A DNA stretch of 64,000 nucleotides from assembly GCA_034509925.1 (NCBI GenBank), contig CM067532.1:4854142-4918141 (forward strand). Direction: 5' to 3'. This DNA is from Hirudinaria manillensis (Eukaryota; Annelida; Clitellata; Hirudinida; Hirudinidae). Below, in pieces: positions 17,029 to 64,000 of the stretch. Each line of letters opens with the position of its first letter. Position 1 is the first letter of the stretch. The notes below the pieces were generated by a model that saw only the letters and a program-made list of their open reading frames with translations, searched no databases and had not been told where the DNA came from. The position numbers were made by a program, and so were the translations under genes.

Positions 17029-17563
17029 CTAACAAAACAATGTTGACATATCACTAATCATAATTACCACCTAATTATCCTCTCTCCCATTTGCTCATTT
17101 TCTTTCAGTTTTATGTACAACGAATGATTAGCCAACTTGATACACTTAGTAACTAACTTTGAACATGCAAGTTTAAAACAACAAATAATGAGAAATAAAA
17201 ATCTTGGCTCGAATTGGAAGTGGCCATTCTTTCAATAAGCTCATTAATATTCCTTTCGAGCCTCCGTAGATAATTTGTTCGAAGCTTCGGCTCCAAGGAA
17301 GCAGCAACAAGCAGCAGCTCGTGCACATTCCGGTTTTAAACGAACAACAAATTGCTGTTTTGTGTGTAAAGTTTGCTGTTTCTTTCGACATAAAGTCTCA
17401 ATTTTCGAAGAGGTACGTGAACTTGCTGTGATTACTTTTTGTTAGTTTCCTTTCATTTCAGATTAAATAACGTTTATTTTAAGCTGATAATGTTGCGGAC
17501 TTTATGATCTTACGATGACGCAAAATCTTATCACTCCTAAGGATATTTAGCTAGACGGAAAGC

Positions 17564-19360
17564 ATGAACGACGAGGCTTGTTCAAGTTCTGTCACAGTTC
17601 CTTGGTTCGTCTGTGACGAAGAATTCATAAAAGTGATTAAAAAAATTTCGTCTCACGTTGAAACACTCAATTGTTCCAATTGCATCAACCTCACGCAAGA
17701 AGCTTTTCTACAACTTTCAAGAGAAGAGACAGTTTTTCCGAAACTGAAGCATCTAATTGTTCCCGAGAACTCTCCTTATCCAGATCTCGTATATGAATGT
17801 CTGTCTTTCATGACCCCGTCTCTTGAACAACTGACCAACGTAAGGCAGAACATCCACAATACTTGCGACCAATTGAAATGTCTCTCCTACTTCAAGAAGT
17901 CAAGCATCAAAATCTTGCAGGACAACCCAGTTTCCTGCTACGGCAGAATTTCGAATCAAAATGAAAAACAAAAGCGTCAGAAATGGGAGCAAGACTTAGC
18001 AAAGATCGCAATTAGTTGCCAAAAGATCGAATCTTACAAATGCTGTGGAGGGCGTGGTTATTTAGATGATAAATCGCTTGAGAGACTATCAGTTTTGATG
18101 CCAGGATTGGTAGATCTTGAACTACGAAGGTGCTCGGTATCAGACGAAGGCTTCAACAAATTTTTTACTTACAACAAGTCTAACAAAATCAAGCGAATAG
18201 TTCTTGATGATGCTGGACAGGAAATAACAGACAAATGCCTCAAGATCATATCAGAAAACTGTCCGCTATTATCCAGTCTGGCTTTGTTAAGATTAGAAAA
18301 AGTTACGAAATACGGAATCGAAAACGTAATCAAAGCTTTCCCTAACTTGCAGGAGCTAGAGTTGGGTGTTGGAGCAACAAAAGGGTCGGAAGACCAAAGA
18401 TGTTGTCTCGATGAATCCGTCCTGTTGACGATTGGTGATCATTGCAGTCAAATGGGCGTTTTGAAGCTACATTCATTCGACTTGTCTTTCAAAAACATCT
18501 CTAAGTCTGTGTCAAGTCCAGAATTATTTTTGAATTTAAAGTGTCTTTCATTTCATGATTGTCAGCTGATTGGTTCACTCTCGATGGTTGAATTTTTGGC
18601 CCAACTCCCTTGTCTGTCAGAACTTTCCTTCATAGATTGCAGATCCTTAGCACCAGAAACACTTGTTAACTTGATTGTCAAATTGACTGCTTTGGAACGT
18701 CTGACATTGTTCTGTCAGAACAAATCATTTTATTCGGATGTCGCACCAATTGCGAAAGACGCTTACACGATGCTCACCTCAGAAAATGGCGGTAGGTTCA
18801 AATTGAGCGGCATAGAGCATTTAACTGTTCAAGGAGTGTCTGGACAGTTTCTCAGATTGCTCACTGCTCTCTGCTCACGCGTTGTTACTCTGGATTTTCG
18901 TCTAAAGATGTTGCCCAAAATAAAGGGTTCCTGCCTTATGGATTGTTTGGATCTCGTGGAAGCTTTGAGTCCTTGCGAATCTCTCAACGTCCTTGAAATC
19001 ACTTCGTCTGGTAGTTCGGGTCTACCGAGGCCCAAATTATCGCAGGAATTCTTCAAGACAATTCTCGATCGTTTGCCACGCCTCAGTAAATTGAACGTTG
19101 ATTTCAGCCTCGAGGAAGTGAACAACGAAGCTCTCCTGTCTTTCGTTAGGAATGTCGAAAATCTGAGACATCTAACTTTGAATTTGGCAGGAAGCGACCT
19201 AAACGAGGAGATGTTAAGAAATGCCGTCGAAAAAGAGAGGGAGGGTCGTTTTCTAATCGTAGGCCCTCAGGGTTTAGAAGAACCCTGCCGCTATAGAATA
19301 ATGAAAGCATATTTGCCATCGCCGAAGAAATCTGCCAAGGATGTTGTCGAATGGATCTAA
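17564..19360 (+). CDS. Intronless leucine-rich-repeat protein (AMN1/FBXL-type repeats)
   Basis: Single 598-residue open frame starting at ATG 17564 and ending at TAA 19360. The repeats have the Cys-containing LRR pattern of F-box/LRR proteins and AMN1. Examples are CLKIISENCPLLSSLALLRL, then VIKAFPNLQELELGVG, FLNLKCLSFHDCQL, FLAQLPCLSELSFIDC and ILDRLPRLSKLNVDF. No N-terminal F-box motif is visible, so the usual SCF adaptor role cannot be claimed from sequence. Cysteines are frequent in the first 300 residues. Complete lack of introns in an otherwise intron-rich window suggests origin by retroposition or a naturally intronless family. An AAT-rich stretch and ATAAA lie 100-120 bp after the stop. 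It stands head-to-head with the claudin-like gene. Confidence 0.85.
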   Translation: MNDEACSSSVTVPWFVCDEEFIKVIKKISSHVETLNCSNCINLTQEAFLQLSREETVFPKLKHLIVPENSPYPDLVYECLSFMTPSLEQLTNVRQNIHNTCDQLKCLSYFKKSSIKILQDNPVSCYGRISNQNEKQKRQKWEQDLAKIAISCQKIESYKCCGGRGYLDDKSLERLSVLMPGLVDLELRRCSVSDEGFNKFFTYNKSNKIKRIVLDDAGQEITDKCLKIISENCPLLSSLALLRLEKVTKYGIENVIKAFPNLQELELGVGATKGSEDQRCCLDESVLLTIGDHCSQMGVLKLHSFDLSFKNISKSVSSPELFLNLKCLSFHDCQLIGSLSMVEFLAQLPCLSELSFIDCRSLAPETLVNLIVKLTALERLTLFCQNKSFYSDVAPIAKDAYTMLTSENGGRFKLSGIEHLTVQGVSGQFLRLLTALCSRVVTLDFRLKMLPKIKGSCLMDCLDLVEALSPCESLNVLEITSSGSSGLPRPKLSQEFFKTILDRLPRLSKLNVDFSLEEVNNEALLSFVRNVENLRHLTLNLAGSDLNEEMLRNAVEKEREGRFLIVGPQGLEEPCRYRIMKAYLPSPKKSAKDVVEWI

Positions 19361-21583: not shown

Positions 21584-24500
21584 TTAATGTAAAGTCGTTA
21601 TCACATCGTCACTACCTCCCCTTTCCTTCTGGACGTCGTCGGAGGATTTACTGAGTACGGACATCTCTTGTACGTTGGAAGCAACGCTTCTGATGTACTG
21701 AATCAACTCGACACCTTGCATGCTGTGGAATCTGAATATTCCTCGATTTTCCCTGCAAAGACTGAAGATCAACACTTTTCATTGTCATTTGCATTGCTAT
21801 GGCTCATTGAAGCGACAATTCAAAAAAAAGTAATAATAATAATTCCTCTTATTAAATTGTTAATATCGGAATTTGTTTATTTAAAAATTAAATAACTTTT
21901 AAAAACATCTATTAATCATTAATAATCAATAAAAAGCCTTTTTATCTTAGCTTTATCTTCAGTCATAAAGATTTGTCTTCAATTATAATTTAAAAATTAT
22001 TTTATCATTTTATAAAATTCGTAATTTCCAGTCAATGCATGTATTACGCGATCATTAATTATTTGTTTATTAAATTCTATTTAATTTAATTTAATGGTCA
22101 CCTAATTACAGGCATTTGATATTAATTTTAATTCTTAGTGAATGGCAATACAATACATGTACATATGGCTCACGTCCATTGTACGTGCACGTCTCATAAA
22201 ATTGCATGTGCGTGTGAATCGATTTGGGTCTCTCACGGAAGAGCATAAAGCGTTAGTTTAGTAATTACATTGCATATGCATCACTCGAGATAGTTTTTTT
22301 TTTTTAAATTACGTTTCAGATCGACCACCCAAGTCTGCAGTGGGGAGGATATTGGTAGGTAGGAAGACAACATACATAAATTACACTACAATAATAAATT
22401 ACATTATAATAATAAATTACACTACAATAATAAATTACATTATAATAATAAATTACACTACAATAATAAATTACATTATAATAATAAATTACATTATAAT
22501 AATAAATTACATTATAATAATAAATTACATTATAATAATAAATTACATTATAATAATAAATTACATTATAATAATAAATTACACTACAATAATAAATTAC
22601 ATTATAATAATAAATTACACTACAATAATAAATTACATTATAATAATAAATTACATTATAATAATAAATTACATTATAATAATAAATTACATTATAATAA
22701 TAAATTACATTATAATAATAAATTACATTATAATAATAAATTACATTATAATAATAAATTACATTATAATAATAAATTACACTACAATAATAGTCCCAAT
22801 AGTAGGACGATTGCAGTGCTTTGACATTCGGCTCGAAAGTGTAGCATCAAAATGATTGACTAGATGCACAATTTTTTATATGAATATGAAATACGTAAGA
22901 ATTTTTCGTTAATGGTGTAATTAATCACATAATTGCATAATTAATCTGTTAGCTAATTTTTAAATTCTGAATTGAATATGAAATCAAAGAATTGATTAGT
23001 TTTCCCCTAAAATGTAAAGTTTTTGGCACAGATGGAGGAAATGTTTTGTGTCCCAAAATATTTCAAACAATCCAGGCAACCAAAATAATTGGAATTCCAA
23101 AAATATTCTTCTTCAAACATTCATTCGTTCCTCTGGCAATCAATCATTCAATACTTTCAGTTTGTTCGGTCAATACTAGTACGGTCTGAATGAAAATGAA
23201 GCACTTAAACCTTGAAGTCTCCAGAGTGACGAGGCACTCTTTCTTTCCAGGAATATTTTCACTTTTCAACTTCCTCACTTCTTCGACCTTCCAGTGGCAG
23301 ATCTCTTTCCTGGTTCCTTCGCTCCCGTTGGATCCGCCGCTGTCTTCTCCATCGGACTCGTCTCTCAGAGACTCCGGGTAACTCTTGCATCGAACGTTGC
23401 TGTTTTGTCGGCTCACGATTTTCATCAATCCGTTCGGGTTCACGCAGAATAAAAACTGACCGTTCAGCTTCGACACGAGTCTCGGCGAAGTTTCCAATTG
23501 AGAACTGATCACGTCGATGACGAAACACCGAAAATTGGAACCTTGAACGATATTCAATGATGCATTAAACAAATGAAGAATCATCTTTTGTCGTGCAATG
23601 AGTTTTATTCGCTATTCATCAATTCACTACGATTCCAAACACACCTGAAGTTGACTGGTTTGAGGCAAGGAGTGACCTGACCCTTGGTAACGATTGGGAG
23701 TTCTTGCAGGCCTTGTCGGCCAACAACTTGATAGCCATCAGCCATTCTCTCATTTCAAGGTCGGACTTCGCTCCGAAGATGAGGGGAGGTTTGTCATCTC
23801 TTTGTGAAACGATGTAACCGTTGTCATTTCATAATCATTGCAGCGGAAGTTTACTAATAAAACGTCAACCTATGCACGATGAAGGCGTGTGGAAATGTTC
23901 TCGAAGTTCTGTGGACGTCCACGAATTTGACGTTCTTCAGGTCTATGCACCTGTCTTTCAAAGATGCTCTGAATATTCCTAAACTCCTAGTTTCCGTGGA
24001 CGATGCCGACGGAAGGGAAACAGATGTTTTGACAGGAAGCTTCGGTGAAATGTGAAGAGTCGGGGAAAGGTTCCGTTCGATGCCCGGGGCTGCAGGCAGA
24101 ATCTCGAGGACAGTTTCCCCCACGCCTTCCACGTGGCTCCACGAATCCCTCAGCACCAGAAACCGAAGTTGCCAGCTCTTGTAACATTATAAAGCACGTA
24201 ATTTTTGAATTTGGTAAAAATCCATTAAAACAAATTGTTAACTGAATTAATATTAAGTGAGCATTATGTGAATATTATGTGAACGATATTAACCATCATT
24301 CAAACCAATTGTGATGAGAAACAAAATAATTGCTTTGCACTACCGAGAGCAAGACTATCGTCGTCCTATGAGGCTGTTTAATAAGGCAATCATTTTTAAC
24401 GTTCATGACATTATTGATAAGCATCACTTCTACGGTCGTAAAGGTTATAATAATAACCTTTATTACATAATAACAATAATAATAATAATAATAATAAACA

Positions 24501-29843: not shown

Positions 29844-32800
29844 CTAAACATAAGTTGAAGTGGTATTAATAATTTTCCAATATCTTTGCCTTACAAGGTG
29901 AGCTGCCATCTTTGGTTGTCTTTGTCTTGTAAACAAACCTTTTCTATTTCCCACAACTCTGTTGACCTCTAATGAATAAATTAACCAATTAAGGTTAGTA
30001 AATATACTAAATCAATAATTGGGGGAATGGCAATAACCTTCATTTGTCATAAAATCTGCAAAGTTCCAAACCATTTCACCAGTTAAAAATGAAAATCTAA
30101 TTTCATCGTATACTTTGTGATATTCATTTAAAAATTCACTCTGATATTCTTCTGAGAATGCTTGAGATGGAATCTAAAGAAAAACAATAGCCAGGTATAT
30201 AAAGTGAAGGTATACAAAGTTTATAAAGTGAAAGAGCATAATAATAATGATTATGGTAATAATAATAATAATATATAAAAACATTATCATATTATTATTA
30301 TTAACATCTTAAAATATTATTCATTAGATGTTCTCGAAAAGCTACTCAATAATAATAATTTCACATATAAAAGACAAAATAAAATATTATGAATTAAAAA
30401 TAATATTATTAAAATGCTAACAGTGTGAATCCCATGTACAGTGTCAGCCCCAAATTCTGAGACTATCATGGGCTTGTTGTAAGTCTTGTACCACTCTTCC
30501 AAATTTGGTTTGAGCTTATACCTGATGGTAGCCAGATATCCCATATCATGGTACCAACCATAATATTTATTTATGCACAGCACATCCAGATACTTTGCCT
30601 GCCATAGCAATAAGTAATATTTTTTAATTGTTTACAGACATTTTCAATAAAAAAAGAGTCAACAAACTGCTCGTTCGTTTTTAAGGGCACCGGAAATTGC
30701 CAAAGTAACGAGTCTCGTGGAATCGAGTGATCTCGTCAATTCGCTGACTTTTCTTGAAATGATTGAATCAATGTATTGTAAACTCACATGAAATTGAATA
30801 TATATATATTCCAATAATTAAAAAACATATATATATATATATCCCACATAAAAAAAAATATATATATATGTATATAAATTTATATATATATAATATATAT
30901 ATACCCGAATAAATATATATATTTTTTTATGTGGGATATATATAATCGGCTTCTCATTGGATTTGGACCACAAAGGACCGAAGGTAAGCCTCAGGCAAGT
31001 CGTCCCTGTCCACTCCACCAAAACATGGACTCCAGTGTAAGACCAGGAAAAAGACTCTAGACGACATTCACACCAAAGTGATATAAGAAGTGCTGCAATG
31101 GCGACTCTGACAGTTTTTCGGACGACGGAGCTCTCGCGGAATTTTTCATGAAATGGCGGTGCAAGTATTGTTTGTTTGTCAGAAGTCGTTGTCTGGTTAT
31201 CAGAAGAAAGTATCTGGCAGGGACATCCGCTCGATCAACGGATGCGGCCCAGCCCCCGAGAGCGTCAGGATTCAGGGCCGAAACATTTGTAGAGGGGTCC
31301 ATTCCTATGAAGATCCCTGCCAGAACGCTCGTTCAAGAGTTTCAATCAATCAACACATATAATAGAAATAAACATTTATGTAAATATATTTTCAAATAAT
31401 AAATAAAATAATATGAATAGATAAATAAAATGTAAAATATTAAACACCATGAAAATATCGAATAATATACTGAAATTGATAGGTCATTGCTCATATAGCA
31501 ACCAATGCCAGGAGGACAAGCAAGAACTGACTTGAAGTACTGGTCAGCTTCAGCAGCATCGCTGGCAGGTTCATTGGCAATTGACCACATGATGACTGAA
31601 GCGTGGTTCTTGTCCCTTCCAATAAGTTCTCTCATAACCTCCAAATGGTGATTTAAAGTTTCATCACCGTAGTTTACCTTGCTGATAGAAATTGATACCA
31701 ATTAATTATTAGTTAAAGTAATTAATTATAATTAATTAAATATTAATTAATTAATATTAAATTAAAATATTAATAATTAATTCTAATATTAAAAATAAAT
31801 TGCAAACAAAAAACTTTTTAAAAATTTAAATGCGAACGTTTTCAGGCCGACTGCGGTGCATTCATCGATGATGACAATGCCTTGTTGATCTGCATGGTCC
31901 AAAACTTCTTGGGCATAGGGATAATGTGAAGTTCTAAAGCAGTTGGCTCCGAGCCACTTGAGCAAGTTGAAGTCTCGGGAAATGAGAGGAAGGTCGAGAC
32001 CTTTGCCGCGGACCTAAAAAATTTTTTTTTTAAATTTCAAAAGTGTTTAACAATAAACCAGATTTATGTGCTCTTATAAATTCATTTAAACCTAATTTAT
32101 ATGTATAACAAGTCTGTTTCTCTCACCACATTTTATTGAATTCTTTTGAAATCAAAACAAATGAACTTCAAAGAATTTCAATTTTTTAAAGACTTTTTCT
32201 TATAAATTATTACACAAATATAATTTATATTTACTTTAATAGCATAACATAAATGATACCAACATCAGAATCTTCATGTTTGTTTACTCCCAAGCAATAG
32301 AAAGGCTTGTTGTTTATCAATATTGACTGATTATTGACTCCAATCGTCCTAATTCCGAACGACTGCCTGTACACGTCCTCTCCATAATGAACCTTCGAGT
32401 TTGAATTAGTTTATCATACTCTTTTATAAGTATTCATCAGATGATAAACAACATTTACTTTTTATAAAAATAATTATATTATTTTATTATATTATGTTAT
32501 TATGCAAAGTTGAAAATAATCTAATTTAAAAGTAAGAATAATTTGGAGGAAAGAAATAATTTGACATTTCATCAAATGTTTGTTGACATTTTGTTTATTT
32601 AAAATGTTGCTAAATATTTAAAAATAGGAAAGAGCATAACAAAAATTGATATGCAGTAAGCATAAGTATAATTCTTCACACTGAAGGATATGGCTGATAT
32701 TTTTCATTAGGTTTTTGAGCAAAACATATAAGAACATCCTTATATATTAAGTCAAGAAAGAATTTGTTCCTATTGGAAATGAAAAAGTGAGCCTAAAGTC

Positions 32801-39440: not shown

Positions 39441-40923
39441 CGACGGTGATTGTGATGATGATGATGATGATGACGATAGAACTCACATTGGGAATCCGTA
39501 AAAACTGACCAGAACAGGGATGCAGAATTTCCTTTTAAAATGGAGTCCAATTAGAACAAATAATAAAACTAATAATATTTGTATTGCCTTCACCGCCAAC
39601 AACAACAACAACGATACAGTTATCGTTGGGATCTTAAATTTCTGTAAGTTGTTTATTTTGTTTCATTATCCGTCCAAGAATGTTTTGTCGAGGGAGGAAA
39701 TAATAGCAAAATAAAATAAAAAATAAAAATAAAGATGGCATATTATTTGCATTTATTCTTAGCGCATCATCATTCGAAGATGGACGCATTCACCAACCTG
39801 ACCAATAGTTCGGTGAGCATTCGTGTATCTCCCCGACCCAAGAATTTGATTGGCACGTGAGTTGGTACTTTTCCTTGGTCCCGTTGCATCCGACGACACT
39901 GACCGCTCCTATTCTTTCCACCCACCTTCCGTTTTCTGCCGGAATGTCAGCGCAGCCCTGAACTGAAAATTTCTTTCACACATTAAGTCGAGGTCTATTC
40001 GTACTACTCGATTAAGAAAGATTTTAAGTCATTACAACTCGATTCGTGACCAAATTGCTCGTCAATTAGTGTGCCTTACGTGTATAAGCGAGTAGAAAGT
40101 ACTTCTTCTTCCTGTTTAAAGTTTGAGAAGATCTTTGGAAGGAACCGGCAACGATCCTCACTTCGATTTTGTTGCCTTCGGAAACGTAGACGTTCTGCTC
40201 TTTTTGTTCGATGCTGCAGATCGTGTTACTCGCTAGAGAAGGCCTGCAATTGAAATTTGTTTTTCCTTTCTTAGATGAGCGAACGAGATAACCCGACGCT
40301 TTTGGACTCACTTTTCTTTCACGATGAGGTAAACGTCGCAGTTCTTTCTCGGAAAAGTCACGTCATGGTCCGAGAAAGCAAAATCGATGAGTTTCAGGTG
40401 AATGGTTTGACCTGACGGAGCTTCCAGTATCCACGGAGATTCAATCGAACCGCAACCCGATTCGTCGGTGACCACGTTGGCAAGGTAACCGGTGGGTTCG
40501 GTCAAGCGCACCAAGGCGTGCTGCCCTGAACATTCGGCCGGCGTCTTGGTTATGACTGAAGAAGTTTAACTCGTTTAGCGTCGAAGAAGCGCTATGTAGG
40601 AGCAAATCAAACCTGAGACGCATGCATACGAAGCCTCGAGAAATCCACGGAGTTCTCGAAGGCAAGAGAGCATTTGACCATCGGGGACGCTGTCAATGAT
40701 GGAGGACACCCTCACTTCGCAAGATCTCCTGCCAGAACACCACAAGTCGAACTGGTTGAGAACATCAATCTCGCAGTTCGAGCTCGAAATTCCAGCACTC
40801 AGACACTTGCTCGGTCTCATTCTTCCATATTTCGCTGAGACCATCACGACCACTTTATCTCTTTCTCTCTCGTCTGCCAAGCAATCGGCCCGAAATGTCT
40901 GCCTTTCGCAATATTCGGCGCTT
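38063..40923 (-). CDS. SUEL-lectin / CUB / sushi single-pass receptor-like protein (5' end incomplete)
   Basis: Seven exons in phase, in transcription order: 40923-40613, 40555-40312, 40243-40080, 39962-39798, 38825-38744, 38665-38520 and 38418-38063, about 489 residues. Exon 1 is a galactose/rhamnose-binding SUEL lectin domain: YCERQTFRADC, VSAKYGRMRPSKC, LWCSGRRSCEVRV and EASYACVS. Exons 2-3 form a CUB-like domain: ECSGQ, TGYLANVV, CGSIESPWILEAPSGQTI, HLKLIDFAF, CDVYLIVKE, NTICSI and KKYFLLAY. Exon 4 is a sushi/CCP module with four cysteines (GCADIPAENGRW ... VGCNGT ... LTCQSNSW ... HECS). Exon 5 is the membrane helix IAIATILGIALIIGVMIFLA followed by IRRRR. The cytosolic tail of about 165 residues is mostly disordered; its end holds Tyr in HIYESP and DLDCYA, possible phosphosites. 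A signal-peptide exon should lie upstream; the ATG at 41542 (RLLLITSGAVFLPPLLCLA) is a candidate. Ligand unknown; the lectin and CUB domains suggest carbohydrate or extracellular protein binding. Confidence 0.85.
38889..38978. repeat. (AAT)n microsatellite
   Basis: About 20 AAT units, then AATAAC variants, in the intron just upstream of the transmembrane exon of the lectin receptor. It produces false poly-Asn and poly-Ile frames. Confidence 0.95.
39100..39150. repeat. (CA)n microsatellite
   Basis: A CACACA run interrupted by GCA and CGTG, within the same intron. Confidence 0.85.
39336..39478. repeat. (GAT)n array with higher-order period
   Basis: Three blocks of GAT repeats, each introduced by GGTGATTGT and closed by GACGAC. 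This indicates amplification of a composite unit as well as slippage of the triplet. Confidence 0.9.
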
Positions 40924-41879
40924 CTGCTTTCTTAAAACAAAAAAAAAACAAAATAAAAACCATTTCAAGGACGAATTTGAAGTAATAACGACTTATTTAT
41001 CGAACGATTCAAGACGATTGAAGACGAAAAAACCTCGAACGGGTTCAAATAAGAGGAGTCGATTTATCATCGGAGGAGTTTATGTGCCAAGACCTCCATA
41101 ATTAATGAGACACATCACTTCCTGGAGGCAATTCCAGGTTGCATTTTCACGTGGAGAACGCGATCGGACGAGTTATTAAATGGCGGGGATTGGAACCGAA
41201 CGAACTCACGGAAATAATGAAGACCGCTTGTTACTATCAATGCATCCGCTGGAAATAAATTTGATCCACGACCGATAAAGTGACACAAGAGGCGGGAAAT
41301 AGAAAATCAATGGCAGACGAGGAAGCTAAGTGGGACAGAAATCGGAGACGAAAGTTTCGGAAGCAAGAACTATTCATCTTCGCGTAGTAACCCGGTATCC
41401 ACTTCGACCTTTTTGACCCCCTTTCGGTGAAAAGTTCGATTTTCATATTTTCCATTTTTGCGAGGCAGAGAAGTGGCGGCAAAAATACTGCGCCGGAAGT
41501 GATTAGGAGCAGACGTGTTTGCCTGCCTCCCAACGGAGGCATGTTTCACGGAAATTACTTGCGACAGTTTCCGATCACGTGACCATAGCTTTGGAGTGGA
41601 ATATTTTCCATGTTTTTGTTTAAAATGTTCTGAATTTAAACATGAAACGCTGCAAATAGTCGCCATTGCCGATTGTTTGTTGTTGCTGTTGGTGGTGTTG
41701 TTGCTGTTGTTGCTGCTAGTGTTTTGGTGATTGAAAATCTGTGAATTAACTTCCGAATATTGTTAATTAAATAACACGTGAGTGATGGCAGTAACAGTTA
41801 AATGGATATTTCAGATGCCAAAGAAGAAATTTCTTCTAATTTTTCACATTTGCTTGATTTTTTGTATTGGCCTTGAACA

Positions 41880-58803: not shown

Positions 58804-58910
58804 GAAGGAGAGGTTGAAATCGAGAGAGAGGGAGGTCTCGAGGATTTGCATAAATAAGGACGGAAGCTCAACTCACTTGCAGACCTCAGAAGCGACTACA
58901 TAAGGAACAC
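58804..58910 (+). promoter_or_regulatory. Conserved core promoter / 5' UTR of peptide gene A
   Basis: 107 bp that align without gaps to 62982-63088 upstream of gene B. They contain GAGAGAGAG, a TATA-like GCATAAATAAG at about 58848-58858, and an initiator-like CTCAACTCAC about 20-25 bp downstream. Such conservation against diverged flanks, placed the same distance from both start codons, marks it as the functional promoter and transcription start. Confidence 0.75.
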
Positions 58911-59016
58911 AGGTAGGAAAGCCTCGACTTTCTTTAAGCCTTTGAAACTTCAATAAAAAAAGTTAGTTAACGTTTTATTAAAAAATACTATTCGTTTTCA
59001 AGGCAACTCTAGAAAA

Positions 59017-59139
59017 ATGAACAAATTTTTTCGCATCGAATTTTTGGTGGTGGTTGTCCTGATCCTAGCCACCCTTACGATGAACATGGCAGTACAGAGA
59101 AGAGGCGTCAGGAACGACTATTACAAAAGGCACTATAAA
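59017..59139 (+). CDS. Peptide gene A, exon 1: signal peptide and N-terminal propeptide
   Basis: ATG 59017 opens MNKFFRIEF, then a strong hydrophobic core (LVVVVLILATLTM). Predicted cleavage is near NMA, followed by VQRR (dibasic) and GVRNDYYKRHYK. Reading on unspliced would give a 44-residue peptide stopping at 59151. However, AAA/GTTGGT at 59140 is a donor in phase 0, and GTTGGT is also the donor form inferred for DNAAF11 exons 14 and 15 in this window. Spliced to 62508 it yields a 102-residue precursor. The 3' flank after the donor is also conserved with gene B (ATTTTTATTAGTAAC ... TATTAATAGATAAT). Confidence 0.75.
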
Positions 59140-59151
59140 GTTGGTCCATAA

Positions 59152-62100
59152 TTTTTATTAGTAACTGAACTTATTAATAGATAATCGCCAAGGTTTATGA
59201 AAATTTTGGTCGTCAAGCGATTAATAATTTAAAATTGTGTACTCGCACGTTTGCAGTTTGTAAATTCTCATGAATCGCATAAAATATTTAAATTCCAATT
59301 AATAATTACATATTTTTATATATTCATATATAGTTAACACCAGTCTGTGGCGGATTTTAACAAAATCTAACAGATCTTTCATCGTGACATTTGATATATT
59401 GACCATTAAACACCATTGACCTGTTGCATTAAACATTTACTAATTTATTGCTAACCTCTGAATATTAGAAGAAAAATAAAAACTTATTCCTATGTTATTA
59501 AAATATCTTATCGCATCCATTATGAAAATAAAGTGCTTTTTGATTTTCGTTAAAATCTGGTTCCATTTCTGTCGAATATATTTGTGGTCACCACAAAACA
59601 ATTTCATTAATTCCATCAAGTGGAGCAAACAACAACCTGAAAGCACAATAAAAAATCTTTTGTTACAAATTCCGCTTGCTTTTTTCTATCTGTTAAATCT
59701 ATTTGCTAGCGAAATGCATAATATAAAAAACATTAATTAATATTTATTTAACTATATTTTTTTACGAAACATTTAAATTTAAAAAATGCGTTCATTATTA
59801 AATTCATTAAATTAGATGTATTAACGGAATTTAATCTGGACATCAATCACATTGGTGAAGAAATAAATGTAATTTGGAACGTTTAATGTTGAGGTCTTAG
59901 ATATCATATCACGTTAGTTTAGATTAGCTAAATATAATATAATTATAAGTATTATGTTTGGCTGTGTCCACGGCTAATATCCATGATTCTGCCGTGATTA
60001 TGTAATAGACTTTGGGGGGCTTGTCTTACACTTTTCACTCTTCCTGCCTTCGTAGGGAATTCAAGATTCGCTGGTTACCTTGGCGGCCAAACTGGGTATC
60101 GTACCTGGTTTGGAAGGGGATGGCTGCTTTATAATTGGGTTTTATATTTATATTTAATGGTCGGGCTAAGATCCCATCGGAATTCTTTCGGAGTAAAGCT
60201 AGAGTTCTCTCGGAGAAGGGCTGAACGCCCCATTGGGTTAAGTTTTGAAAGGAATTTGTTTTAAATTTCGAAGTAAGACCTAGGTTCGGGGAAGTGCTGT
60301 TTTTTTAACAATGCTTTTTTATGTAGAACATTTTTGTTTTATTTAATCACGCCCCAAAAATTCATTCATACTCAAATGTCAGAATCATGGTTGTTATTCA
60401 GACACAACCATTATGTTTAGTATAATGATTACATTACAAGAAATCATATTACGTATTATTACCAAAAAAATCCATAAATTACGAATTCAAATTGCATTCT
60501 TTGGGACGTCTTTCAAGATTCTGATCAGTTTTAAGATCATTTTCACATGAAAACAACTTTATATGAAAGTATGAAATAATTTCTTATTAAATTCCCAATT
60601 AATTATCTATTTTTGGTCGTCAACTCGAATTCGCCGAATAATTTGTTTGAATCGAAAACAACTTGAAAACGTAGGCTGGAATTACGGTTCGTGACCGAAC
60701 ATCACGATACCATCCTCGAACTGTTGTTTGGTTTGCTATTGTTGAGATCCTTGTAACAGCAATTAACTTTATACATTAGACACGCCAACAATTACCTTCC
60801 AACCTCATGAAAGCGTATTGTTCTCTTGCAACATGCCATTTCGACTTTCATGGGCCACAATAGACGATCAAACATGATTTTAACGGTAATTGAAATTTAA
60901 ACGGTCTTATTTAGATTTAAAAGTTTTCATTTGCTTTGGCTTTTAGAGCATTTAATAGTCATATTACGTTCCTGAAGTTTTTTTGTGGTGGGAATTTGGT
61001 TTCTGTGATGTTAGAGCTCACACTCACCAGCCAAAAGCTTCAAAGGTATTAATTGATGATCTTAAGTGATATGCTAATTGCAGAAGCCAATTTTAGCCGT
61101 TGAGATTAAGCTATAATTAGAAAGTTCTAATTACCAATTAAACCTAATTGTGTTTAAATATCACTCCATACCTCCTTCGGCCTGTTGCCGATTAAGAACT
61201 TAGGAGAATTCTTGAAAATGTTCACCTGATGAGGACTTCAAACGGCATCCACCTACTTAAATTGAATATTATGCCCAATTAGACGCAAAACAATAAATGC
61301 AGTAGCAGTCCATTATTAGTTGATAGGATTTTTCTGCGATCAAATTCAGTCTACAAAGAATCACCTGCAACGAGGGGATTTCATGCAAAAAGTTTACTTT
61401 AGGAATATTTAAATTAGCCATGAAATATTTAGGTTTGAGACGGTATAACTCTTAATGAAGTTCTAAATCATATTTTACATGAAATACATCATTGGTATAC
61501 CAAGAAGATTGTGATTAATTAAACGATTGAAGTATTTATGTACTATCCTACAGATGAAAAATGTAATAAGTAAAGTTTGATAAAAGCACAGCCCACGGAG
61601 AATTGTATTTGAAAACAAAAAGAATTAAAAAAGGAATTACAAACCTGTCGCGTCACTAATTTGTCTGAAATGAAAGCCATTGTTAATGAACTCATAATTA
61701 CTTCATAATTGCTCAAAACATGGTTTCTTCGTCAACATAATCCTACTAATACATTGCATTAACGGATTTTAATTTTTTACAATTTTTAATTAATTAATCT
61801 CGTTATATTTCCAATTAGGCGCATCGCTTTGAAATTCACCTTCCGCGTAGACTGTGTTAATCTGAAAGCATCCGAAATAATTCTCTTTTGCAACAGACAT
61901 ATTCATTCAAAACAATTAAAATTCACTTTTAGTATTAAAATCCTCTTACTTAATTACTAGTAATTTGCTTTTATTTATCCATTACAAACTGCTTTGTGTC
62001 GTAGAGAAAGGCGTAAAGTTTGCAAAACAAGTGAATGTCGGAAAAGTATAGTTACAATAAAGATCTTCATTTTTCATATCTCTCCCTTTCTAATTTCTTT

Positions 62101-62507
62101 TAATCTTTTAAGTATTTTTTGCATTCGGAACAGGCCGTACAAGTAGGTCCTATCGATATAGGCGATCCACCCTGATCTTCGGACGCTTACAACGTGGGCT
62201 TTCCTGACTTAAAGCTGTTGACCTAAAAAGGCCAAAGAGCCTACTTGAGCCGACGTTTACCGTTTCTCAAAGTGTATACTTACGTGTATACATTGACTTC
62301 AATTCAACAATAAGTTGCTTTCACGAATAGCAGACGAACAATGTGAAAATAATTGCTTATCAAAGGAATTTGTGTTATAATTTAATTATGCTACAAAAAT
62401 TATTTTTTGATTTTACTTCAAGTAATTGATTGAGACTGATCGCTGATTTTTCTTAAAGAATACTTGACATCAGAAAATAGAAAATAAAGGAATAAATTTA
62501 ATTTCAG
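59152..62507. other. Intron of peptide gene A (inferred)
   Basis: 3.4 kb, AT-rich. 60000-60300 is a less AT-rich stretch without recognisable coding content. 62150-62260 shares short blocks (GCGATCCACC, ATCTTCGG, GCTTTCCTG) with 63736-63830. Confidence 0.4.
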
Positions 62508-62693
62508 AGATTCGTATACGACCAACCATCGAAAGTCGTCCACAAAAGCGTACCCCAAGAAGAGAACATTCTCGATGAAATTATGGACGATTCTGTCAAC
62601 CAAAAGGCAAAACAAGCAGCTCTTTGGAAAAGGAAAAGCCTGCAGAAACGCGTTCCAATCCAATGCCTCATAAACATTATCGCCTGTTGGTGA
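62508..62693 (+). CDS. Peptide gene A, exon 2: allatostatin-C/somatostatin-like C-terminal peptide
   Basis: Exon without its own ATG, preceded by acceptor TTTAATTTCAG and open in phase 0 from 62508 to TGA 62693 (61 residues). It starts RFVYDQPSK and continues through an acidic spacer (PQEENILDEIMDD). Then come the basic sites LWKRKSLQKR and a 13-residue C-terminal peptide, VPIQCLINIIACW, directly before the stop. Two cysteines six residues apart, Asn at the third loop position, a polar residue before the first Cys and an aromatic C-terminal residue after the second match the allatostatin-C pattern (…QCYFNPISCF). No Gly follows, so the peptide would have a free acid end. Expected: secretion, convertase cleavage after KR and one disulfide. 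Splicing to 59139 is inferred. Confidence 0.65.
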   Translation, partial: RFVYDQPSKVVHKSVPQEENILDEIMDDSVNQKAKQAALWKRKSLQKRVPIQCLINIIACW

Positions 62694-62981
62694 TTAAAAC
62701 ATTATAGATTGCTTTCTGCATTCAGAAGTTAACGATTCAGAAATCGATCACATTTCGTGAAACGTCATATTACAGATTTAGTTTGAATAAACGCGATGTT
62801 ACTTTGTATCTGTAGCAATTCACTGTAAACTGTTCTTTGATCGGTGGTAACGTGACAATAGCCGCTACGCACTTGAGAACGACCTCTCCGATTTTGTCAC
62901 CTCTGATTACTAGTAAAAGATGTATAATTGACACGCAGATGAGATTAATCAAGAGAACTATTATCGATTCACATTTTCTTC

Positions 62982-63088
62982 GAAGGAGAGGTTGAAATCG
63001 AGAGAGAGTAAGGTCTCGAGGATTTGCATAAATAAGGATGGAAGCTCAACTCACTTGCAGTCCTTAGAAGCGACTACATAAAGAACAC
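62982..63088 (+). promoter_or_regulatory. Conserved core promoter / 5' UTR of peptide gene B
   Basis: Gapless partner of 58804-58910, with the same TATA-like GCATAAATAAG, initiator-like CTCAACTCAC and GAAGCGACTACATAA. It begins about 290 bp after the end of gene A's exon 2. Confidence 0.75.
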
Positions 63089-63187
63089 GTTCAAGTGTTA
63101 ACTTTGTTTAAACCTTTGAGAGGTTCGATAGAACAATTAGTGAAATTAAAAAAAATTACGATTCGTTTTAAAGGCAACACCAGAAAA

Positions 63188-63307
63188 ATGAACAAATTTT
63201 TTCGCCTCGAATTGCTGGTTGTAGTTATCTTGATCTTAGCCACCCTTACGATGAACATGGCAGTACAGAAAAGAGCTCTCAGGAACATCCACAAAAATCC
63301 CTATAGA
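63188..63307 (+). CDS. Peptide gene B, exon 1: paralogous signal peptide and propeptide
   Basis: MNKFFRLEL, hydrophobic core (LVVVILILATLTM), NMA, then VQKR (dibasic) and ALRNIHKNPYR. Donor AGA/GTTGGT at 63308 is in the same phase as gene A; unspliced, the frame would stop at 63319. About 65 percent of residues match gene A, and most changes lie after the signal peptide. No second exon is visible in the remaining about 690 bp, so it should lie beyond the window. Confidence 0.7.
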
Positions 63308-63319
63308 GTTGGTACATAA

Positions 63320-64000
63320 TTTTTATTAGTAACAAAAGTTATTAATAGATAATTACTGAGGTAAAAAGAGCTTTCATGTGTACCGTTTCTGTGTGAAATT
63401 TACATCAGAGGTGTGACACACTTTTTTTTTACTCGGGCCATTGCATTAAAATAAGTTATACAGCCGGGTCATTCAGTCGAGATGAAGTACATATTGACAA
63501 AGCTGATTTTTTAAATAATTGCACTTGTTGAATAATAGGACTTTATAACACTGTGTAACATATTTTGAACTCAGGGGAGGTTGGCCCGTAGTTTGGATGC
63601 CCCTGGTGTATACAGTAAAACCTTTAAATTGGGACGCCCAATAGTAGGTAAAATCTGTCCCTAGGGCCCTTTTTTCTAGGAACCGATTTTTACTTTAGTT
63701 TAAGTCTCTTTTGCCAACGAGCAGGCTGCACATAGCGATCCACCGAATGTGATTCAAGTAGGCTTTTCCAACGAGATCTTCGGCACCGGGAGCTTTCCTG
63801 GCTAAAGGCGGACTAGGTTTAACACAGACGCCTGGTAAAAGGGACGGCCTGCCCATAGGGACTCTCTTGGGATGTTGTTTCATCCGATAACGTGACAACT
63901 CATCTAAACTTCTTATGAGCAACTCTTATTCCTTAGAACATCATCACATCTACTAACTCGTCAACCTCTCTTTATTATCTCCTCATTTGCCTGAACTTAT
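63320..64000. other. Start of the gene B intron or flank
   Basis: Contains a repeat-like segment at 63710-63860 related in blocks to 62150-62260 within gene A. No exon recognised up to the window end. Confidence 0.35.

Follow-up and report, generated by a model that had tools for sequence, protein, structure and literature searches.

Tandem genes A and B of the leech Hirudinaria manillensis probably encode allatostatin-C/somatostatin-type prepropeptides

A 64,000-nucleotide stretch of the Hirudinaria manillensis genome (GenBank assembly GCA_034509925.1, contig CM067532.1, here C7, positions 4,854,142 to 4,918,141; hereafter the window) carries near its end two short exons, which a first-pass annotation had joined across a 3.4-kb intron into a single allatostatin-C (AstC)/somatostatin-like neuropeptide precursor. 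The locus raises the question of whether the exons belong together and, if so, whether their product is a member of this hormone family. A precursor gene was indeed found at this position, but it is not alone: a second, overlooked gene lies directly behind it, with its first exon inside the window. Our reading, to which we assign a probability of roughly 86%, is that these tandem genes, designated A and B, each encode an AstC/somatostatin-type prepropeptide.

Coding exon 1 of gene A (59017-59139; all features of both genes are on the forward strand) reads MNKFFRIEFLVVVVLILATLTMNMAVQRRGVRNDYYKRHYK, an ATG-to-GT open frame of 41 codons starting MNKFFRIEFLVVVVLILATLTMNMAVQ and followed by a GT donor at 59140. 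Joined in phase 0 to coding exon 2 (62508-62693), it gives a frame of 102 amino acids. The intron (59140-62507; 3,368 bases, GT...TTTCAG) is also of phase 0, has both of its ends kept in gene B and, in the segment tested for repeats, matched itself alone. Exon 2 encodes a spacer, a dibasic KR and the predicted mature peptide VPIQCLINIIACW (62652-62690), with TGA directly behind. The exon coordinates, the acceptor, the compatible phase and the 13-residue C-x6-C-Trp peptide between KR and stop were all recovered as first described; the accompanying statement that exon 2 has no ATG was wrong, as one lies in frame at 62583-62585 (gene B is without it). Exon 1 encodes the start of the propeptide behind a hydrophobic stretch at residues 9 to 22, with a Kyte-Doolittle maximum of 3.42 over 11 residues; this may be a signal peptide or a membrane anchor, between which hydropathy cannot decide. 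An N-terminal hydrophobic stretch of this kind has been reported as an anchor for the allatostatin CC of some insects (PMC4237046).

When the genome was searched with exon 2 or the exon 1 region, exactly one further copy came back each time, in the same order and directly downstream. These copies make up gene B, a complete tandem copy that has a promoter-like region of its own, contains an intron of 851 bases and encodes a 101-amino-acid product ending KR-DPIQCLINIIACW-TGA. Exon 1 of gene B (MNKFFRLELLVVVILILATLTMNMAVQKRALRNIHKNPYR; 63188-63307) is followed by an intron at window-equivalent positions 63308-64158, of which 63308-64000 lie within the window, and exon 2 falls past the window end (window-equivalent 64159-64344, C7:4918300-4918485). 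Homology between the genes is carried by two aligned blocks, 58807-59185 with 62985-63353 and 62366-62819 with 64024-64436. Within them, 101 of the 120 aligned positions of exon 1 are identical, as are 170 of 186 in exon 2, which aligns without gaps; the coding parts differ by one 3-base deletion and contain no frameshift. The splice sites and the KR are kept, and the mature peptides are identical at 12 of 13 residues, the sole difference being Val (A) or Asp (B) at residue 1. This adjacent copy, with its retained frame, splice sites, KR and mature residues, is the strongest support for the observation, and its identical exon order, phase and splice sites back the joining of 59017-59139 to 62508-62693. 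A third copy was not found by similarity searches of the genome, in which a fifth protein match, on contig C8, was at chance level (E 0.49, 27% identity).

The flanking sequences are shared as well. The promoter-like region and 5' untranslated region of gene A (58807-59016) and of gene B (62985-63187) are identical at 167 of 203 aligned positions, and identity continues at the intron start (42/46), the intron end (121/135) and the 3' flank (81/92, plus 34 gap columns). Two AATAAA hexamers that align with each other, at 62786-62791 and window-equivalent 64403-64408, probably serve genes A and B, respectively, as poly(A) signals. Transcription of gene A probably starts near 58880. Upstream of gene A, the octamer ATTTGCAT (58844-58851) runs into a TATA-like box, ATAAATAA; the same octamer lies at 63022-63029 before gene B. 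The overlapping octamer and TATA-like box form an identical ATTTGCATAAATAA at 58844-58857 and 63022-63035. These labels are our assumption, and we take the octamer to be a POU-factor site.

Comparison of A with B over 101 codons gave a synonymous divergence (dS) of 0.24 and a nonsynonymous divergence (dN) of 0.104, with a synonymous lean at a Fisher p of 0.013 to 0.040, depending on how the counts were rounded and on sidedness. The signal region (dS 0.351, dN 0.052) and the KR with the mature peptide (dS 0.264, dN 0.028) change slowly at the protein level, the 14 codons that come next after the leader vary freely (dN 0.369, dS 0.321) and the exon 2 spacer is intermediate (dN 0.09, dS 0.146). 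A loose propeptide with a tight leader and a tight peptide is the pattern of a hormone precursor, seen here on small numbers. The arrangement is also rare by chance: the pattern dibasic-x(1-14)-C-x2-N-x3-C-[FWY]-stop occurred once in the real window against twice in total in 400 first-order Markov windows, and the pattern relaxed to leave out the Asn occurred once against 34 times. Genome-wide, C-x2-N-x3-C-W-stop (TAA or TGA) gave 16 matches versus six for the reversed pattern, and only genes A and B among the 16 had a dibasic pair within 20 residues upstream.

As regards the family, both precursors carry at their C terminus two cysteines six residues apart; the third residue of the loop is Asn, and the second Cys is followed by an aromatic residue. 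Both precursors are short, with one peptide each behind the dibasic site. The predicted phase-0 intron lies in the N-terminal part, after codon 41 in gene A and codon 40 in gene B. Such an intron is a mark common to somatostatin and AstC genes, the scallop gene included, according to PMC7536072, and it is the strongest independent argument here, because the first-pass annotation had not used the intron as evidence of family. The assignment to the family is further backed by likeness to the AstC of Aplysia and by the candidate receptors that this genome contains.

The peptide was compared with those of annelids and molluscs. Molluscan AstC-like peptides are described in PMC8514136 as having 13 to 15 amino acids, one peptide per precursor and two conserved Cys, and the AstC of Aplysia, SHYSSMCMFNVVACY, activates its own receptor, with the disulfide of importance (PMC8786951). 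With the Aplysia core CMFNVVACY, the leech CLINIIACW shares both Cys, the Asn and the Ala, and the other residues are alike in kind, except for Ile in place of Phe. The loop LINIIA had been called unusually aliphatic; aliphatic it is, but it is less odd than that wording implied, because the Aplysia loop is MFNVVA. What does appear unusual in the leech peptide is Ile for Phe before the Asn and Trp in place of Phe or Tyr at the end. The leech genes therefore resemble molluscan AstC in a single 13- to 15-residue peptide behind a basic site, the Asn, the aromatic C terminus and a long intron, and differ in the Phe-free Leu-Ile-Asn-Ile-Ile-Ala loop, a C-terminal Trp rather than Tyr and two genes rather than, usually, one. 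Arthropod allatostatins C, CC and CCC share the C-x6-C with an aromatic residue and neighboring duplicated genes, but the arthropod copies give distinct peptides, whereas the leech pair differs at residue 1 only and, at a dS of 0.24, seems to stem from a young duplication. Vertebrate somatostatin and cortistatin share the intron phase and place and a disulfide peptide, but have ten residues between the cysteines and a Phe-Trp-Lys core. CCWamide/agatoxin-like precursors are also short, with a C-terminal Cys peptide and an aromatic end; this assignment was rejected, as CCWamide has eight Cys and a C-terminal amide, whereas the leech peptide has two Cys, no Gly and Trp followed by a stop. Leech members of the family, and probable orthologs, are the precursors that Table 1 of PMC8786951 lists as AstC for Hirudo medicinalis and Helobdella robusta.

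AstC receptors are described as close to somatostatin and opioid receptors. With human SSTR2 as bait, 123 genome matches were obtained, as expected for G protein-coupled receptors (GPCRs), and three loci, on contigs C4, C1 and C12, were assigned by best Protein Data Bank (PDB) match as candidate somatostatin/opioid-type receptors. The C4 locus (about 9,782.8 to 9,798.1 kb, its exon pieces joined by inference) has SSTR2 as its best PDB match (E 1.1e-57), followed by SSTR1, SSTR4 and opioid receptors, and in a large protein search a Helobdella GPCR matches it at 47% identity. For the C1 locus the best PDB match is again SSTR2 (E 4.6e-36), and for C12 the best 60 of 179 matches comprise opioid receptors, which rank first, together with nociceptin and somatostatin receptors and no other kind. 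The best raw SSTR2 match, a locus on C7, was left out of the candidates as galanin/allatostatin-A-like by its own best PDB match.

Whether the genome holds other AstC-type genes was examined with motif scans, which cover the given loop and end patterns, so that a peptide with a different loop or end would escape them; they returned about as many matches as their reversed patterns. Two scans used the end codons TDS, which leave out TTT and TAT. One of these returned genes A and B alone, and the broader one 79 matches (101 reversed), 35 of them open with an F, Y or W end; all 35 were read. A basic pair within 15 residues was present in 4 of 34 TDS-scan matches, with the precursor layout in none. 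The nearest in layout, CSFNSLYCFV on C1, is by reading antisense to another coding exon. Repetition of the scans with TTT and TAT gave 39 (30 reversed) and 73 (61 reversed) matches, of which 84 distinct ones were open; 41 of these, chosen for AstC likeness, were read, and the other 43 were left unread. None of the 41 combined a basic pair, the loop, an aromatic end and a leader, and 4 of 40 read matches had a basic pair within 20 residues. Several look-alikes were rejected individually. CLINVVACF (C3) lacks a basic pair and, by reading, is part of a larger coding exon; CKINIIACY (C12) is without precursor context. The only match to C-x-F-N-[PA]-[IV]-x-C-F, CNFNPVQCF-stop on C7, has one lone Arg but no dibasic site in its vicinity; about 40 codons are open before it, in what reads as another frame of a transporter-like coding stretch. 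CIFNVYYCW-stop (C4:6261303-6261332, reverse strand) is a chance product of a low-complexity repeat and a caution for neuropeptide searches based on motifs only. One candidate stands: at C2:144231-144257 (forward strand), RR-QMVKSGLKFFVIL-CFFNLRSCF-stop, with a 13-residue spacer, is open for at least 40 codons and single copy. On the 181 bases examined there, it may be an AstC-type gene; by estimate, rather than computation, about one such match would be expected by chance among so many. Genes A and B are thus the only AstC-type genes supported here, without being proven the sole ones in the genome.

Several observations weigh against the family assignment or soften its support. The Phe at loop position 2 that is common in AstC is replaced by Ile in both genes; this residue is usual rather than defining, because AstC was recognized by its two Cys in PMC8514136. 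The precursor had no match among 5.8 billion proteins, although Helobdella proteins are present among them, an empty result that says little because gene callers readily overlook short genes of two exons. A Pfam search of the precursor gave no family above cut-off and one chance-level match (E 0.089). The noncoding flanks of the duplication are 82 to 91% alike, about equal to the 84 to 91% of the exons, so much of the likeness simply reflects a recent duplication and is by itself little proof of constraint; the excess of synonymous changes is modest. The named protein matches of the C4 receptor locus are mostly opioid receptors, with "somatostatin" in no name among the matches listed. Finally, because the C2 candidate stands and 43 of the 84 open matches are unread, the main AstC of this leech could come from a different gene.

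Some of these points would also suit a real secreted disulfide neuropeptide of another, perhaps lineage-specific, leech family that converged on C-x6-C-aromatic, which we consider improbable but the most serious of the alternatives. It would account for the empty homolog search, the loop without Phe, the Trp end and the AstC-like stretch elsewhere, on C2, and Cys peptides specific to single lineages are numerous in annelids (PMC3890597); it leaves unexplained the place of the phase-0 intron, the single-copy C-terminal peptide, the Asn at loop position 3 and, in common with Aplysia, the two aliphatic residues and Ala that precede the second Cys. Much less probable still is that the product is no hormone but a ring peptide secreted against prey or microbes, of a salivary or antimicrobial kind. 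A short, hydrophobic, cyclic C terminus in a blood-feeding leech would fit this role, and tandem duplication is common in such genes, but the convertase-type KR, the somatostatin/AstC intron, the slow-changing mature peptide and the finding of just two copies do not. Least probable of all is that the open stretches make no product and are paired by chance or left over from decay: frame, splice sites and KR have survived in two copies at the dS observed, and the simulated windows yielded the pattern only twice in 400.

If A and B are AstC/somatostatin-type genes, we infer the following course from transcription to receptor. The genes would be expressed in nerve cells and their transcripts spliced as predicted; the N terminus would be cut off, or the protein anchored, in the secretory pathway, and a prohormone convertase would cut after the conserved KR to free VPIQCLINIIACW (A) or DPIQCLINIIACW (B), each of 13 residues with a free C-terminal Trp. 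A disulfide ring would close between both cysteines before release, and the peptide would act mostly by inhibition, via a somatostatin/AstC-type receptor. A more elaborate proposal, which is possible but which we hold doubtful, is that the leech lineage rebuilt a somatostatin-type hormone, with a tandem pair, a ring that is aliphatic and free of Phe, and Trp at the C terminus. Charge may then divide the Val and Asp peptides among the three somatostatin/opioid-type receptors, or the two promoters may be expressed separately, perhaps with hybrid transcripts joining exon 1 of A to exon 2 of B, which could arise because both junctions are of phase 0.

Other features were noted in the window and the genome. 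An intronless open frame at 17555-19360 (forward strand) encodes a 597-amino-acid leucine-rich F-box-like protein, which an unnamed database protein matches at 89% identity and an F-box protein of Helobdella at 55%. On the reverse strand, 31345-31701 is a glycosyl hydrolase family 2 exon (Pfam PF02836, E 5.6e-13), whose product is presumably a beta-glucuronidase, and 40578-40931 is a possible SUEL-type lectin domain exon, below the Pfam cut-off (26.7 versus 31.4 bits). A long ATT/AAT-rich tandem array at 22265-22855 is a simple repeat with long open frames on both strands. TTAGGG-type repeats were present in 9 of the 20 contig-end pieces examined (nearly all contig starts) and TTAGG arrays in none. 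The readable mitochondrial protein genes are all on one strand (the mitochondrial contig is partly masked), in an order that we take to be annelid-like. Both observations speak against an arthropod as the source, an idea that the name allatostatin might prompt.

Leech AstC as such is not new, because that of Hirudo medicinalis and Helobdella robusta is already in PMC8786951. The strings CLINIIACW, INIIACW and NIIACW were absent from the paper texts searched, and the words "allatostatin" and "somatostatin" from the main text of the leech neuron and leech central nervous system transcriptome papers. A tandem AstC pair in a leech was not met in the literature passages searched, in which molluscs nearly always have a single AstC gene and the nearest parallel comes from the bivalve T. 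granosa, in which a single fragment carries two such genes. Genes A and B are very probably a further example of a known hormone family, with the tandem duplication as the addition, and the pair adds a case of such duplication outside the arthropods. Leeches are classical animals for single-neuron physiology, and a ligand pair together with three candidate receptors in one leech would make somatostatin-type signaling testable there.

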